Shown here: positions 16,169-23,461 of the stretch, piece by piece
Position numbering within the stretch: the first letter of the stretch is position 1
Layout: each line of letters opens with the position of its first letter
NCBI GenBank assembly: GCA_905211505.1
Contig: CAJMAX010000011.1
Coordinates: 1-24,182 of the forward strand
DNA length: 24,182 nt
Reading direction: 5' to 3'
DNA from: an uncultured bacterium
GTDB taxonomy: Bacteria; Cyanobacteriota; Vampirovibrionia; Gastranaerophilales; Gastranaerophilaceae
The notes under the pieces: model-generated
Seen by the model: the letters and a program-made list of their open reading frames with translations, nothing else
Told to the model about the DNA's origin: nothing
Databases searched by the model: none
Made by a program: the position numbers and the translations under genes

Positions 16169-16722
16169 TAAACACCTCTAACTTTTGTACTGGCTAATAC
16201 AATATCCTCAATTTCCGCACTGTAGTTAAGCATAACTTCAGTGGCAAAATCTTTTACATCATTTATACCCAAATCACTTTCTAATCCTGATACAGGAATA
16301 GGTGCCCCCTCTGATAATATATTAACACCGGTATGAATCAAAACTGAAGTTAATGATTTTGTAGCAATAGATACGGATAATTTTTTATCATTAACAAATA
16401 AATCATCGCCATCACGCTTTACCACAAAACCTCTTTTCTCAAGAGCTTCTTTTATACAACAAATGAGCAACCTCTGCCTAAATACACCTTCGACAAGCTC
16501 AACATTAAACTGTTCTGTAATAAAACTAAGCATATATTTACTATAAATTGGCTCATTGTTTATTACATCTTCAATGTCGACCATTTCTGTCAATTTAACT
16601 TCGCATTCGCCACAAAAAGCAACAATCGCATCTCCCTGAATTTTGAAATTCTTATAAATCCAGTGAGGAGCAAGCTGAGAGCCTATATATTTTATATCAC
16701 TATCTATAAATAAAGTTTTCAT
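16168..16722 (-). CDS. DUF366 family protein, queC neighbour
   Basis: A 184-aa soluble protein that I recognise, from pattern only, as DUF366: QLAPHWIYKNF with GDAIVAFCGECEV, MVDIEDVINNEPIYS, the RQRLL block (82-86), RDGDDLFV (103-110), KLSVSIATKS (114-123) and LIHTGVNI with H130. The order and the invariant look of R-G-D-D-L and S-V-S-I-A-T suggest an enzyme; a biotin/lipoyl-ligase-like fold has been proposed for such sequences, to my memory. Function is not established. It begins 3 nt after the queC stop; its ribosome site (GGGTAGAAG) spans the queC stop. Position directly after queC points to 7-deazaguanine/queuosine metabolism. Confidence 0.7.
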   Translation of the reverse strand: MKTLFIDSDIKYIGSQLAPHWIYKNFKIQGDAIVAFCGECEVKLTEMVDIEDVINNEPIYSKYMLSFITEQFNVELVEGVFRQRLLICCIKEALEKRGFVVKRDGDDLFVNDKKLSVSIATKSLTSVLIHTGVNILSEGAPIPVSGLESDLGINDVKDFATEVMLNYSAEIEDIVLASTKVRGV

Positions 16723-16725
16723 CTT

Positions 16726-17391
16726 CTACCCGAATAAAATATTTGTATAATAAGTGTCATTATTTGCTTCCAGAGCATGTTTCAACCTTAAACATGACTC
16801 ACATATCCCGCAATGCTTTTCCCCGCCCTGGTAGCAACTTCTGGTCAATTCCAGAGGAATACCATGCCTTAAAGCTAACATGACTATATCATTTTTAACA
16901 TAATTTATCAAGGGTGCAACAACTTTTGGGTGTTTTCTTGTAGAATAAAGGAATTCAGCATTTATTGAATCTATAAATTCCTGCGTATTATCAGGAAAAG
17001 TTTGCCCCTCCTCTTTGTTTGCACCTATCAAGATATAATCAAAATCTTCTGAATCCGCAAAACTGCCGGCAATATTCAGAAACAGCCCGTTTCTATTTGG
17101 AACCCACACCGATTTTGCGGTATCTTCAGATAGAACAAGACTTTTTCCGGTTGGTATATTATCTTTAGCAACCAACGATGTATGTGTAATATCTTTCAAC
17201 CAGTCTAACTTTATTATTATATGTTCTAAATTATAGTAGTCACAGATTTTTTTTGAAGTTTGAATTTCTTGTTGTACAGATTTTTGACCATAATCAAATG
17301 TTAATGCTAATGAGATATTCAATTCTTCCTTTTTTAAACCCAAACTAACAAGAGAATCCAGTCCGCCTGATAATAATATCAAAGATTTCAC
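16726..17391 (-). CDS. queC: 7-cyano-7-deazaguanine (preQ0) synthase
   Basis: ATP-dependent PP-loop enzyme that converts 7-carboxy-7-deazaguanine and ammonia to preQ0, precursor of queuosine in tRNA. The 221 aa carry the PP-loop S-G-G-L-D-S (8-13), FDYGQK (32-37), VPNRNGLF (97-104), and a C-terminal zinc site C186-x7-C194-x2-C197-x2-C200 (CYQGGEKHCGICESC). It starts with GTG at 17391, only 2 nt after the stop of the HEAT gene; the ribosome site GGGGAG lies within the last HEAT codons, 7 nt before the GTG. queD, queE and queF are not in the window. Confidence 0.96.
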   Translation of the reverse strand: MKSLILLSGGLDSLVSLGLKKEELNISLALTFDYGQKSVQQEIQTSKKICDYYNLEHIIIKLDWLKDITHTSLVAKDNIPTGKSLVLSEDTAKSVWVPNRNGLFLNIAGSFADSEDFDYILIGANKEEGQTFPDNTQEFIDSINAEFLYSTRKHPKVVAPLINYVKNDIVMLALRHGIPLELTRSCYQGGEKHCGICESCLRLKHALEANNDTYYTNILFG

Positions 17392-18406: not shown

Positions 18407-18541
18407 GCCAATACCGCTCATAACCAATAACATTTATTAATAGCTCTTAATTGTAACATTTTTGTAACCATGTGTCAAAAATAAATATTCTTTGATTTAA
18501 AATAATTGTGTAGCAGTTATTAATTTTATAAATGGTGCAAA

Positions 18542-19399
18542 ATGAATATAGACTCAATTAAGAATTATCCCACTGGAATTTTAATCAAGAATAAGCCTGC
18601 GTACGGGCTTGAGAACAAACAGAAGAACAGAAGTGCGGAATTGTGCGACAATAAAAAATTGAATAGAGGATATTACAGCGGTAGCTTTACGGGATTGAAC
18701 GGAGCTGCCGCTGGGGCTTCTAGGGGTATGTTAAACAAAATATTAGATCTTTGTGATTCACATACAGTAATTGCACAAAACCTTGTAGCACTTGTTTTAG
18801 CCGCTGGATTAAGACCTATTGCAATTATGTCTTTACCGGGTAAAAAAGATAAAGAAGACAAAATTTACGCATCAGGTCACTCTATCGCTTCAGGTCTTAT
18901 CGGTTTTGGTTTTTCTAGTATTGTAATGTACCCTCTGGGCAAAGCTGTAAAGAAAACAATTAGCTCATTTAAAGATGCAGCATCTGCAATTTCACTTTTA
19001 AAATCAAAAGCAACAGAAGAACTTACTGAAAAAGAACTTAAGAATTTAAATAAACTTAAAGATAAATACAAACTTTCAAATATTAAAGATATTGAAAACG
19101 TAAAAGTATTTAAACGATTAAAAGAAATTTATAACATTGAAAACTTAGCAGAACTTGAACATTCAAAAGCATTCAAGAATGTTACAAAAATGCTGGATAT
19201 GGCACCGGATGTATTCGTATTCGGTATAGCAAAAGCAATGTTAACAGTTGCTCTTATTCCTCCAATTCTGAAATACGGATTTGGACTTGAAAAGAAAAAG
19301 AAACCAGCAGCCCTTGAAGTTGTTCCACAACAAACAGCTCCAATACCTCCAACCATGGAAAAACCGGAAATTACAAAATTTGCAGGAGGGTTAAAATAA
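18542..19399 (+). CDS. Membrane protein with N-terminal SFTG motif (lineage-type)
   Basis: A 285-aa protein of unknown function. The N-terminal 45 residues are polar, Asn/Lys-rich and probably disordered, with no signal peptide, and end in GSFTGLNG (S48-F-T-G51). Hydrophobic segments follow at about 78-97, 113-136 and 222-246, the first two split by a short charged loop (PGKKDKEDK). Between the second and third is a long charged helix (140-215) with repeating Lys/Leu/Glu. The tail is Lys- then Pro-rich. The layout matches the next gene (SFSG in place of SFTG; VFGIAKAMLTVALIPPI against VFGTVYRFLAPVLVTPI), so they are probably divergent paralogues. TATAAA (18527-18532) ends 9 nt before the ATG and there is no strong ribosome site, so the leader may be very short. 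Such N-terminal F-(S/T)-G proteins seem common in Gastranaerophilales from memory; not checked. Confidence 0.8.
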   Translation: MNIDSIKNYPTGILIKNKPAYGLENKQKNRSAELCDNKKLNRGYYSGSFTGLNGAAAGASRGMLNKILDLCDSHTVIAQNLVALVLAAGLRPIAIMSLPGKKDKEDKIYASGHSIASGLIGFGFSSIVMYPLGKAVKKTISSFKDAASAISLLKSKATEELTEKELKNLNKLKDKYKLSNIKDIENVKVFKRLKEIYNIENLAELEHSKAFKNVTKMLDMAPDVFVFGIAKAMLTVALIPPILKYGFGLEKKKKPAALEVVPQQTAPIPPTMEKPEITKFAGGLK

Positions 19400-20232
19400 T
19401 GAATATCACTTTAAACACAAATAACTTTAGCTCTCAGCAATCTAACAGAATAAATAATAATTATAAAAATAAAAATTCATACAAACAAATTTCAAATAAC
19501 AATCAACCGTCTTTCAGCGGAATTGAAATACCTACAAAGTCAAAAGTTCTGGCTCCATTCCATAGAGCTATGGATAATTTGACCAGCTGGATATCTAAAA
19601 ATTATACAGAAAAACTTTATACCTCTAAATTTGCCGGGTATCTTGCAAAAAAAGCAGATAAATTAAGCAGCGTAGTTGACCATATGCAAGTTATGGGCTC
19701 AATCATTATTTCAGGAATGTACATGACTGAAACGCTACGAAACAAACAACTGGATGAAGATAGAAGAAGAACTCTTGCTATAAATCAAGGTTTAACATTT
19801 GCGGTATCAACTGCAGGCTCATACATCATTGATGATATGCTGGACAGCAAATGGGAAAAATTAACCACTAAATATGCAGCAAAAGAAATCGGCGACGATA
19901 AACTAGCTGAAAAAATTGAAAAACTCAATCAAAAATTAAAAGCCGAGTTTGATGCAAAAAATATCAATGGAGCTGGTAAAGGAAAAGCTGCAAAATTCAA
20001 ACCAATGACAGTATTAAAATATATTGAAGACAATCAACCAAATACTACATTAGAAAAAAGACTAAGAGGTATGGGTGTATTGAAAAAACTAGTAGTCTTT
20101 GGTACAGTATACAGATTCCTTGCTCCAGTACTTGTAACACCAATAGCCAGCAGTTTAGGTGAAAAATATATCAAAAACAAAAAAGAAAAAGCAACCCAAC
20201 CTAAACCAAATCTTGATGTCAAAAATGCATAA
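19399..20232 (+). CDS. Membrane protein with N-terminal SFSG motif, paralogue of its neighbour
   Basis: A 277-aa protein of unknown function. The first 36 residues are almost all Asn, Ser, Gln, Lys and Tyr, followed by PSFSGIEIP (S38-F-S-G41). Then come an amphipathic stretch, a hydrophobic segment (96-112), a charged loop (NKQLDEDRRR), a second hydrophobic segment (126-146), a long charged helix (150-190), and a third hydrophobic segment (229-250) in KKLVVFGTVYRFLAPVLVTPIASSLG, ending Lys-rich. Same order as the gene before it. The ATG shares one base with the upstream stop (TAATG at 19399) and AGGAGGG (19384-19390) lies 8 nt before it, so the two are made together and could form a complex. 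A terminator follows. Confidence 0.82.
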   Translation: MNITLNTNNFSSQQSNRINNNYKNKNSYKQISNNNQPSFSGIEIPTKSKVLAPFHRAMDNLTSWISKNYTEKLYTSKFAGYLAKKADKLSSVVDHMQVMGSIIISGMYMTETLRNKQLDEDRRRTLAINQGLTFAVSTAGSYIIDDMLDSKWEKLTTKYAAKEIGDDKLAEKIEKLNQKLKAEFDAKNINGAGKGKAAKFKPMTVLKYIEDNQPNTTLEKRLRGMGVLKKLVVFGTVYRFLAPVLVTPIASSLGEKYIKNKKEKATQPKPNLDVKNA

Positions 20233-20246
20233 TTCATAAATCACAC

Positions 20247-20278
20247 AAAAAAGAGTTCAAGTTTATGAACTCTTTTTT
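20247..20278 (+). terminator. Rho-independent terminator after the SF(S/T)G pair
   Basis: AAAAAAGAGTTCA (20247-20259) pairs perfectly with TGAACTCTTTTTT (20266-20278) around a 6-nt loop. Confidence 0.9.
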
Positions 20279-20559
20279 GTTGATGCTCATATGCAAAATT
20301 ACGCTAACAAGATGAGAACTATCATTCTGAACATTACAAATCGAAGCGATGAGAAGATATATAAATCGACTAAACCTGATGCAAGTATACAGAACCCAAA
20401 CGTTGCAGAGCCGAGTTAACAAACTCAATTCCAAACCAAGTTCGTAATGACACAACAACAATAACATTTATGTTTTAGTTTTGCACCAACAAGTATAACT
20501 AATAATTGCCATACTTAACTTGGTTCAATAGTTTTAAAACATTCAATCAAACTATTAGG
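20279..20559. repeat. Repeat-rich spacer with degraded dispersed-repeat copies
   Basis: No credible gene. It holds TCATTCTGAACATTACAAA (20322-20340), followed by TCGAAGCGATGAGAAG, AACCAAGTTCGTAATGACAC (20434-20453), and AACTTGGTT (20517-20525), the perfect complement of 20434-20442. These are pieces of the same intergenic repeat type seen at 6865, 13605 and 15238, decayed to different degrees. A 77-codon minus-strand frame here looks accidental. Confidence 0.55.
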
Positions 20560-21048
20560 CTATAATTTTTGAGGTTTACAAAAATACGGATTATTCTGGT
20601 ACTTTGCCCAGACAATATAAGCTCTATTACCCTTAATTGTCCGAGTTCCGGCCACTATATACTTAATATTTCCTGTCTTAGGATCTTTATGTTCTCTAAA
20701 TATTTCCAACTCATGTTTTTCAGGTTCTTTTGATCTATCTTTCATTGCATTATAAAGTTCATCGACCTGCACATTTGTAAAATTACAATTTACTTGAAAC
20801 TTATCTTTTGACGATGAAATAACTTCTTGGTACTTACAAAAACCATTTCTCCACCCGATAATTTTCCGACTTGAGGTAAATGTTTCCCCCTCAAATTCTG
20901 AAGTTGTAGTTTCTTCATAAGGATCACAGTCTTGAAAACTTTTTTTAAACTTAGATGAAAACTTAGTATATTCAGCAGCAAAAACACAAGTTAAAGCAGC
21001 ACTAAAAGTTACCAAAAGAGCAAGGATTAAAACTAAAGATTTTTTCAT
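20560..21048 (-). CDS. Small secreted protein, four cysteines
   Basis: A 162-aa exported protein of unknown function. The signal peptide is classic (MKKSLVLILALLVTFSAALTCVFA, cleavage near residue 24-25). The mature part has four Cys (C41, C71, C88, C157), enough for two disulfides, and mixed polar/charged sequence including GWRNGFCKYQEV and the C-terminal RAYIVWAKYQNNPYFCKP. No lipobox is evident, as the Cys at 21 lies within the hydrophobic core. I do not recognise a family. Ribosome site GGAGGGAG is 7 nt before the ATG, with a good promoter upstream (21109-21082). It stands alone. Confidence 0.8.
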   Translation of the reverse strand: MKKSLVLILALLVTFSAALTCVFAAEYTKFSSKFKKSFQDCDPYEETTTSEFEGETFTSSRKIIGWRNGFCKYQEVISSSKDKFQVNCNFTNVQVDELYNAMKDRSKEPEKHELEIFREHKDPKTGNIKYIVAGTRTIKGNRAYIVWAKYQNNPYFCKPQKL

Positions 21049-22900: not shown

Positions 22901-23461
22901 CTAAGAATTTGATGAATTAAAATTTTTATACTTATAACTTAAAATACTATATGTAGAAGGCTCTGAGGCACTATCATCACCATAAAAAACAGACATACTT
23001 GTAGCTTTTTTATAATTTTCCTCATCAATTTTTTCCTGTTTGTTACAAGAATAAGAAAAACTTGAGATTTCCGCACTAGTTACACGCCCATCATGGTTTG
23101 TATCCATTTCATCAAAATTCTCCAAAATTTTATTTACCATATCTCCGGATAACGAGCCGGACGCAGCAAGCTGAGATAATTCAGTTCTTGATACACCGGC
23201 AGTTGAAATTGTATTTGTCAAATTATTCATTTCTTTGGCACTTATAACACCATCTCCATCTTTATCCAAAGAGGAGAAATTATTTTGCATATAAGACGCA
23301 AAGGACTGATTCAAAGTTAAATAATTCGTTTTATCATTTCTTGCCGCTGTTATATTTTCATAAGTTACACCATCCTTAGGATACAAAGAAGACAAATATG
23401 CATGTGTATTAGTCAATCCTGAAGATATATTTGTTATAATAGAATTTCCGTATGATGCCAT
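22901..23461 (-). CDS. EF-hand calcium-binding protein
   Basis: A 186-aa protein with two canonical EF-hand loops: DKDGDGVISAKE (66-77; ligands D66, D68, D70, V72, E77) and DTNHDGRVTSAE (120-131; D120, N122, D124, R126, E131). They are joined by a helical, Ser/Leu-rich linker. The first 50 residues are Ser/Thr/Asn/Tyr-rich and the tail after 140 is polar. There is no signal peptide or membrane helix, so the place of action is unclear (cytosolic, or exported by a route not visible here). It could act as a calcium sensor or buffer; no partner is evident. The ribosome site AAAAAGGA lies 7 nt before the ATG, with a strong promoter at 23529-23502. It is divergent from the TsaC-family gene. Confidence 0.85.
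   Translation of the reverse strand: MASYGNSIITNISSGLTNTHAYLSSLYPKDGVTYENITAARNDKTNYLTLNQSFASYMQNNFSSLDKDGDGVISAKEMNNLTNTISTAGVSRTELSQLAASGSLSGDMVNKILENFDEMDTNHDGRVTSAEISSFSYSCNKQEKIDEENYKKATSMSVFYGDDSASEPSTYSILSYKYKNFNSSNS

Follow-up and report, generated by a model that had tools for sequence, protein, structure and literature searches.

The window, a stretch of 24,182 nucleotides from an uncultured bacterium of the Gastranaerophilales, carries two adjacent genes for membrane-type proteins, here called A and B, which are listed with their associated features in Table 1. The sequence-only reading had described these genes as overlapping in a TAATG, and both open reading frames and the one-base overlap of stop and start are found. 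The same overlap is present in 16 of the 19 loci where A and B are separate genes, the other three showing spacings of -4, -14 and +17 bases. The pair keeps its neighbours in L001 to L003: a HEAT-repeat protein, a gene which we take to be queC-like, a DUF366 gene and a SPOR protein on one flank, and a small protein with a hydrophobic start and a presumably mnmE-like gene on the opposite one. In L046 and L051 the HEAT, queC-like and DUF366 genes still adjoin the pair, but lie 3' of B on the same strand. The small protein (20560-21048 in the window) begins with an N-terminal stretch that appears hydrophobic and signal-like by eye, has no Pfam match, and adjoins the pair in L001-L003. A protein with EF-hand calcium-binding motifs (22901-23461) also keeps its position in L001 to L003. 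The conserved block upstream of A is a candidate promoter by its appearance, an assignment that stays conditional because the sigma-70 scan did not include CTTTGATTTAAAATAATTGTGTAGCAGTTA among its listed promoters. The palindrome after B has A/T flanks, which would produce a T-run on either strand.

Table 1. Features of the A/B locus, in positions of the window
Feature	Position	Strand	Basis
Promoter-like conserved block CTTTGATTTAAAATAATTGTGTAGCAGTTA upstream of A	18490..18519	+	Many invariant columns in a 13-locus alignment
Gene A (P0001, 285 aa), first half of the membrane pair	18542..19399	+	ORF list
RNA hairpin in the A coding region, 13 bp, 12-nt loop, overlapping codons 45-57 and SFTG	18676..18713	+	RNAalifold, covariation
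SFTG motif of A (residues 48-51)	18683..18694	+	A sequence, 121-row alignment
A hydrophobic segment 1 (residues 81-99, mean 1.93)	18782..18838	+	Kyte-Doolittle
A hydrophobic segment 2 (residues 115-133, mean 1.46)	18884..18940	+	Kyte-Doolittle
A hydrophobic segment 3 (residues 224-242, mean 2.02; VFVFGIAKAMLTVALIPPI)	19211..19267	+	Kyte-Doolittle
Conserved A C-terminal end KFAGGLK, a further FxG	19376..19396	+	26 sequences
TAATG junction, A stop and B start, one shared base	19397..19401	+	Identical in 16 of 19 loci
Gene B (P0002, 277 aa), second half of the membrane pair	19399..20232	+	ORF list
PSFSG motif of B (residues 37-41)	19507..19521	+	B sequence, 121-row alignment
B hydrophobic segment 1 (residues 89-107, mean 1.13, weak)	19663..19719	+	Kyte-Doolittle
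B hydrophobic segment 2 (residues 126-144, mean 1.13, weak)	19774..19830	+	Kyte-Doolittle
B hydrophobic segment 3 (residues 231-249, mean 1.76; LVVFGTVYRFLAPVLVTPI)	20089..20145	+	Kyte-Doolittle
Terminator-like palindrome after B	20245..20280	.	Scan lists the minus strand

Neither protein aligns to an established family in the collections searched: the best matches, with E values of 0.12 in Pfam and 0.042 in NCBIfam, fall far under the cut-off, and the best match in PHROGs (E 0.11) is not significant. The suggestion that the pair belongs to no described system is left intact by these searches. At E ≤ 1e-3, A has 552 homologues and B has 153, the best 120 being listed in each case (120 of 552 and 120 of 153). 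A search for a viral carrier found no relative of A among viral contigs. Profiles of A and B match 83 and 81, respectively, of 97 genomes sampled from the order (E ≤ 0.001), and A matches 104 of 244 genomes sampled from the phylum (E ≤ 1e-4). A and B are not always separate: they form one open frame in the fetched loci L035 to L041, L044, L047 and L048 and in many further proteins. Many genomes of the order also carry a second, compact fused A/B paralogue (25 read, 297 to 364 aa), whose halves match the two families in hhalign (A, 99.8%, score 180.2; B, 98.9%, score 113.3). Since the two proteins occur as a single chain elsewhere, in the long fusions as well as in the compact paralogue, the most plausible reading is that each contributes one half of a membrane complex. 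The overlap, the fusions and the single-chain model suggest that the A and B halves touch each other.

Three hydrophobic segments had been claimed for each protein, and 19-residue Kyte-Doolittle means locate them in both, the first two of B counting as weak membrane segments on account of their low means. The claimed lack of a signal peptide also holds in terms of hydropathy: no 19-residue window reaches a mean of 0.9 before residue 81 in A or residue 89 in B, as a Sec signal peptide would. An AlphaFold2 model of the natural fusion P0243 (118 rows) has a pLDDT of 81.1 and a pTM of 0.77. Each half of the model has a pair of shorter helices, one helix of 23 or 24 residues, another of 41 or 45, and ends in a long one; the order of helices is similar in the two halves. 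B modelled alone reaches a pLDDT of 74.2 and a pTM of 0.55. The leads, which had been called disordered, are indeed modelled with pLDDT below 50, in residues 1-53 of P0243 and in residues 1-15, 17-21 and 25-44 of B. Foldseek and VIA against the PDB, and Foldseek against viral models, returned no match that stands out from the background. Several positions outside the leads are invariant: R91-P92 and K231 across the 26 A sequences compared, and Y238-R239 across sets of 30 and 67 B sequences. The C-terminus of A is likewise conserved, with G282, G283 and K285 invariant and F280 nearly so in 26 sequences.

The similarity in plan between the two proteins had been interpreted as divergence from one ancestor, a claim that the sequence comparisons did not bear out. 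BLASTP of A against B finds no match. Profiles of the A and B halves reach an hhalign score of 25.0, below the 26.4 and 27.8 of the reversed controls, and the compact halves give 10.3 and 18.3 against the opposite family. The second segments of A and B can be seen to align in register, without significance, and the V-F-G match proposed as a shared feature does not extend to distant A relatives, which have, for example, IGIPQAMITIALIPP or TAIPKSMLTIALIP. Weak cross-matches of the B model to the TM2 and charged-helix part of some A relatives were not accepted as homology. Common ancestry of A and B is thus not supported at the level of sequence.

Small membrane halves encoded by adjacent or fused genes, with an odd number of segments per half, are characteristic of the split and fused dual-topology families of the DUF606/SMR type. 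A and B resemble these families in occurring as adjacent or fused genes and in the odd segment number of each half, but no homology was detected between their halves or with any Pfam family, and they carry long disordered leads with a shared motif. The three segments per half, the split and fused forms and the invariant residues R91-P92 and K231 of A and Y238-R239 of B would suit a transporter or channel composed of two halves in opposite orientation, as in dual-topology families, with the motif being incidental. We consider this quite unlikely: the halves lack sequence homology and a clear fold match, the compact paralogue has another residue in place of R239 (IYYG), and this reading does not account for the motif on soluble enzymes.

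The N-terminal SF(S/T)G motif, claimed for both proteins, is present in each (Table 1), and it persists in their relatives, where the approximate consensus is [VIPLG]-[SNPT]-F-[TKNSG]-[GSA]. A regular expression written for it matches 118 of the 121 A rows and 116 of the 121 B rows, so that the motif recurs in relatives as the earlier reading had supposed, beyond what chance would explain. In B, F39 is F in 120 of 121 rows, that is, in all rows with a letter, and in all 67 rows of a separate alignment; columns 27 to 32 of B, by contrast, are almost unconstrained, with an entropy of 2.8 to 3.1 bits. Position 49 of A is F in 94 of 121 rows, and other rows have SVSFGA or a similar sequence close by. 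In the fusions the motif reappears within the chain, in the linker ahead of the B half. An FxG-type motif is found there in all 49 long fusions, 20 of which form one close group (P0243 to P0261 and L048), against a mean of 27.4 and a maximum of 36 in residue shuffles. Among compact fusions it is found in 23 of 24 linkers (shuffles: mean 5.4, maximum 11), the exception, L053, reading IFFTG; the 25th, L127, which was left out because its linker bounds are lacking, holds ISFTG. In the model of P0243 both motifs, VTFSG (46-50) and PAFTG (273-277), lie within stretches of pLDDT under 50. The description of the motif as an N-terminal tag behind a disordered lead therefore holds in part: the disordered lead is confirmed, but in the fusions the motif also occurs within the linker that precedes B and is thus not confined to the N-terminus.

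To what extent the motif is used by other proteins was assessed in the N-terminal 75 residues of proteome ORFs against shuffles, with several forms of the regular expression tried once the motif was already known. A strict pattern is found in 21 of 382 ORFs of genome G001 (shuffles 8.2, maximum 18; interior windows 14 of 924) and in 11 of 164 ORFs of G005 (3.6, maximum 9); in G010 the count, 15 of 355, is not beyond all shuffles (8.4, maximum 17). A genome of the same phylum, G118, has 2 in 173 ORFs (2.7, maximum 9), and is a weak control because of its GC content of 67%. With a looser pattern the counts in G001 (38 of 382, maximum 38), G010 (25 of 355, mean 25.2) and G005 (16 of 164, maximum 19) are not beyond all shuffles, and a narrower pattern yields 13 of 343 ORFs in G082 (4.3, maximum 10) and 5 of 354 in G047 (4.5, maximum 11), the latter not beyond shuffles. 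Proteome-wide enrichment is modest, exceeding all shuffles in G001, G005 and G082 and not in G010 and G047, and conservation of the motif within families is the stronger evidence. The idea of a motif shared by many proteins of the lineage is borne out for several unrelated families that keep it, and only modestly at the level of whole proteomes. When the incomplete gene sets of five genomes were compared, eight families had the motif in at least two of them; in three of these families (INFGG, GPFTG and AAFTA/SAFKA) we judged it to be part of a folded domain. Sixteen of 20 tagged candidates scanned have no Pfam match at E 0.01. An association between the presence of A/B and the presence of the tag was considered and dropped: G005 has tagged proteins and no A/B match.

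The tag is kept by soluble enzymes of unrelated families. An amidohydrolase (PF04909; L062:17202-18302, L184-L213) has its catalytic core directly after a short SFxG lead (SFKG-KIIDSHVH). The motif is detected by regular expression in 22 of its 30 loci; variant forms (PKFTG or QVFKG, for example) are seen in L192, L198, L199, L200, L201 and L210, and a lead is absent from L202 and L203. Of 30 loci of an alpha/beta hydrolase (PF12146; L068:9546-10508, L154-L183), the 13 most closely related (L154 to L166) carry the motif. A hydrophobic stretch within residues 1-70 is absent from all of these tagged sequences but present in 14 of the 17 more distant untagged ones, and the FxG tag may replace an anchor among these relatives. 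In both hydrolases the codons of the motif are varied, which indicates that the peptide is what is kept. Both M20-type peptidase sequences read also carry the motif, as LAFKG (G005) and LSFKG (G012).

A separate membrane-type system, C, is tagged as well. It occurs as a fused protein of 679 aa in G082 (L260:4791-6830) and as a homologous split pair in G010 (L092:14783-16916; 351 and 363 aa, 14-base overlap). The motif is found in the leads and, in the fused form, in the linker too. C matches no Pfam family and has no detectable relation to A/B, hmmsearch scores being near zero. It matches 88 of the 97 sampled genomes of the order (E ≤ 1e-5), including 7 of the 13 genomes with neither an A nor a B match (G005, G008, G012, G013, G018, G029 and G091). 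The A/B and C systems are thus widespread, in 81 to 88 of the 97 sampled genomes, and have no Pfam name.

Two explanations of the motif other than docking draw on these distributions. The motif could be a protease site at which the lead is cut off and the fusions are cut into the same two chains as the pair. Its location between a disordered lead and a folded part, directly ahead of the amidohydrolase core and at the A/B border of the fusions, would suit such a site. The residues after the motif vary, however, no protease is known, and a cut at the C-terminal FxG of A (FAGGLK) would take off almost nothing; we think this explanation unlikely. The lead could alternatively be a Sec-independent signal for export or secretion, being N-terminal, disordered and rich in N, K and S, and occupying in the alpha/beta hydrolase the place where 14 of 17 untagged relatives start hydrophobic. 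An N-terminal signal makes little sense of a motif kept inside fusions and before membrane segments, and A and B are themselves membrane-type proteins, which renders this possibility very unlikely.

The start of gene A shows a second kind of constraint, at the RNA level. Across 14 loci, rare synonymous codons are kept in 5 of 33 testable columns within codons 1-74 of A, as against 1 of 104 later; these are CCC at P10, AAG at K18, TTG at L34, ACG at T50 and GCC at A56. RNAalifold on 13 loci predicts one stem in this region, of 12 pairs, 6 of them with compensatory changes. In a 10-pair core compared over 18 loci, 97.8% of cells are paired, and changes on both sides are seen in 6 of the 10 pairs and in 14 cells. 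The covariation score of the hairpin is 0.352, against 0.204 in shuffles and at most 0.160 in slid versions. Four of five measures were reached by none of 500 shuffles and the fifth, further pair types, by 44 of 500; these figures cannot be taken as probabilities, given the kinship of the loci and the fact that the structure itself comes from them. This stem is present in 18 of the 29 starts of A genes that were read; another 3 form a different stem at roughly the same position, and the remaining 8 lack one there. The three variant stems (L043, L044 and L045) each lie below 60 of 60 codon shuffles (0/60, at equal scan steps). An additional pairing of TATCCC near the start with GGATA, noticed by eye in alignments, was dropped, being broken in L001, L003 and L014.

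The hairpin does not resemble an intrinsic terminator or attenuator: no T-run follows the stem in the window, where the sequence is GGGCTTCTAGGGG instead, and the terminator scan did not list it. In L043 and L045 the variant stem (AAAGACCGC/GCGGTCTTT), about +155 from the A start, has a T-rich end (TTTCT) and could be terminator-like there. None of the Rfam covariance models reached its gathering score in 12 sources; sub-threshold matches had E above 1 and were all on the other strand. A model of the hairpin itself, searched over 1,620,984 bases, yields matches below E 0.6 at two places only, gene A of the window and gene A of G001; the G010 counterpart (L049) scores E 3.0 and lacks this stem. 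With its compensatory stem near the 5' end of one operon, the hairpin is similar to the cis-regulatory RNA hairpins collected in Rfam, and differs from them in matching no family and in lying inside a coding region, at codons 45-57.

Stable structure at the motif is particular to A among the families compared. In 70-nt windows at the motif, from genes with a match to the regular expression only, the mean folding energy is -24.6 kcal/mol for A (n=13), an unusual stability. No stable stem is seen in B (-7.9 kcal/mol, n=8 of 12), the amidohydrolase (-9.1, n=22 of 26), the alpha/beta hydrolase (-6.8, n=13) or the compact linkers (-7.5, n=19). C may be an exception in one of its two split genes: in the first C gene of G010 (L092:15861-16916) a window at about +85 to +135, just after PSFRG, has -21.4 kcal/mol, with 2 of 60 codon shuffles as low, whereas the second C gene of G010 and the fused C of G082 have no such stable window (29 of 60 and 32 of 60 codon shuffles). 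Since the stable window is found at the motif in A and not in B, the hydrolases or the compact linkers, we rejected the spread of FxG by palindromic insertion. The palindromic elements of Rickettsia, which are in-frame palindromes within coding regions, are comparable to the A hairpin in this respect. Unlike them, the hairpin is not dispersed in 1.62 Mb and its stem changes by compensation, and the four other FxG families have no stable stem at the motif.

The relation of peptide and hairpin bears on whether the motif of A is only a by-product of the RNA structure, with its occurrences elsewhere due to composition or chance. The Thr codon of SFTG in A is the rare ACG in all 10 loci with SFTG, and the modest proteome enrichment also agrees with this explanation. 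We regard it as highly improbable. An FxG, FxA or FxS lies in the stem or at most 9 bases after it in 21 of 21 stem-bearing genes, where stretches of equal length from other parts of these proteins predict 3.4, and its position shifts between the 5' arm, the loop, the 3' arm and the sequence just downstream. In L036 and L037 SFTG has become SFTD or SFTS, yet LSFKG follows just after the stem. Such maintenance of an FxG-like peptide at shifting places of the stem, including in L036 and L037, makes the peptide and the RNA look separately selected. Other families, moreover, carry the motif with varied codons, the four tested have no stable stem, and F39 of B is invariant. A coding-region hairpin that is kept by compensation at the codons of a kept peptide constitutes a double constraint that is directly testable.

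The account we favour, tentatively and with somewhat less than an even chance of being right, combines these observations: A and B as halves of one membrane complex, FxG as a docking or sorting tag, and the hairpin as a control element in cis. A and B would form the two halves of an inner-membrane complex of about six helices specific to the Gastranaerophilales, produced in this genome as two subunits with coupled translation and elsewhere as a single chain. The flexible lead or linker before each half would display the short linear motif, and a putative common receptor would most likely dock or sort the motif-bearing membrane proteins and hydrolases at a shared place in the envelope. The hairpin at codons 45-57 probably sets or paces the translation of A and, through the coupled start, that of B. 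From the distribution of the motif and the compensated stem we infer both the docking role of FxG and the cis-acting role of the hairpin. A variant of this account, which we find unlikely, ties the two more closely: FxG would be a lineage-wide peptide address and the A hairpin would pause the ribosome, coupling delivery to translation. A putative receptor would then read FxG in disordered leads and linkers, gathering split or fused membrane complexes and selected hydrolases, and the hairpin at the tag codons would hold the ribosome while the conserved N-terminus (MNIDSIKNYP) exits the tunnel.

Topology poses a difficulty for docking. Three segments per half would put the motifs of the A lead and of the fusion linker on opposite sides of the membrane, which fits poorly with a single cytoplasmic receptor; either not all segments cross, or the motif works on both sides, or cytoplasmic docking is wrong. 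Also counting against the favoured account are the weak hydrophobicity of B segments 1 and 2, the modest proteome-wide enrichment, the 8 of 29 A-gene starts without the hairpin, and the one hairpin measure that 44 of 500 shuffles reach. Short sorting or docking peptides in the flexible termini of unrelated proteins are otherwise familiar from encapsulation peptides and microcompartment leaders, whose residues differ from FxG. The FxG motif is similar to them as a short peptide in a flexible terminus of unrelated proteins, and differs in occurring also inside chains, ahead of membrane segments. In the part of the literature that our search reached, no paper was found on an N-terminal motif or a riboswitch of the Gastranaerophilales. 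If the docking account is true, a sorting or docking motif common to proteins without kinship, across an entire order of gut bacteria, would provide insight into the organisation of their cells and offer a shared starting point for many proteins of yet unassigned function.

Some further occurrences of the motif were encountered in the course of the comparison. Families without assigned function carry it in two genomes each: L083:4801-7167 and L262:154-2907; L059:5465-7345 and L107:228-2120; and L269:6750-7085 and L255:472-795. Two adjacent small proteins, L065:16027-16497 and 16500-17063, start with MKILPISSNYSNLSFSS and MLISPVSNNIYTFRAN, and are possibly another tagged pair.
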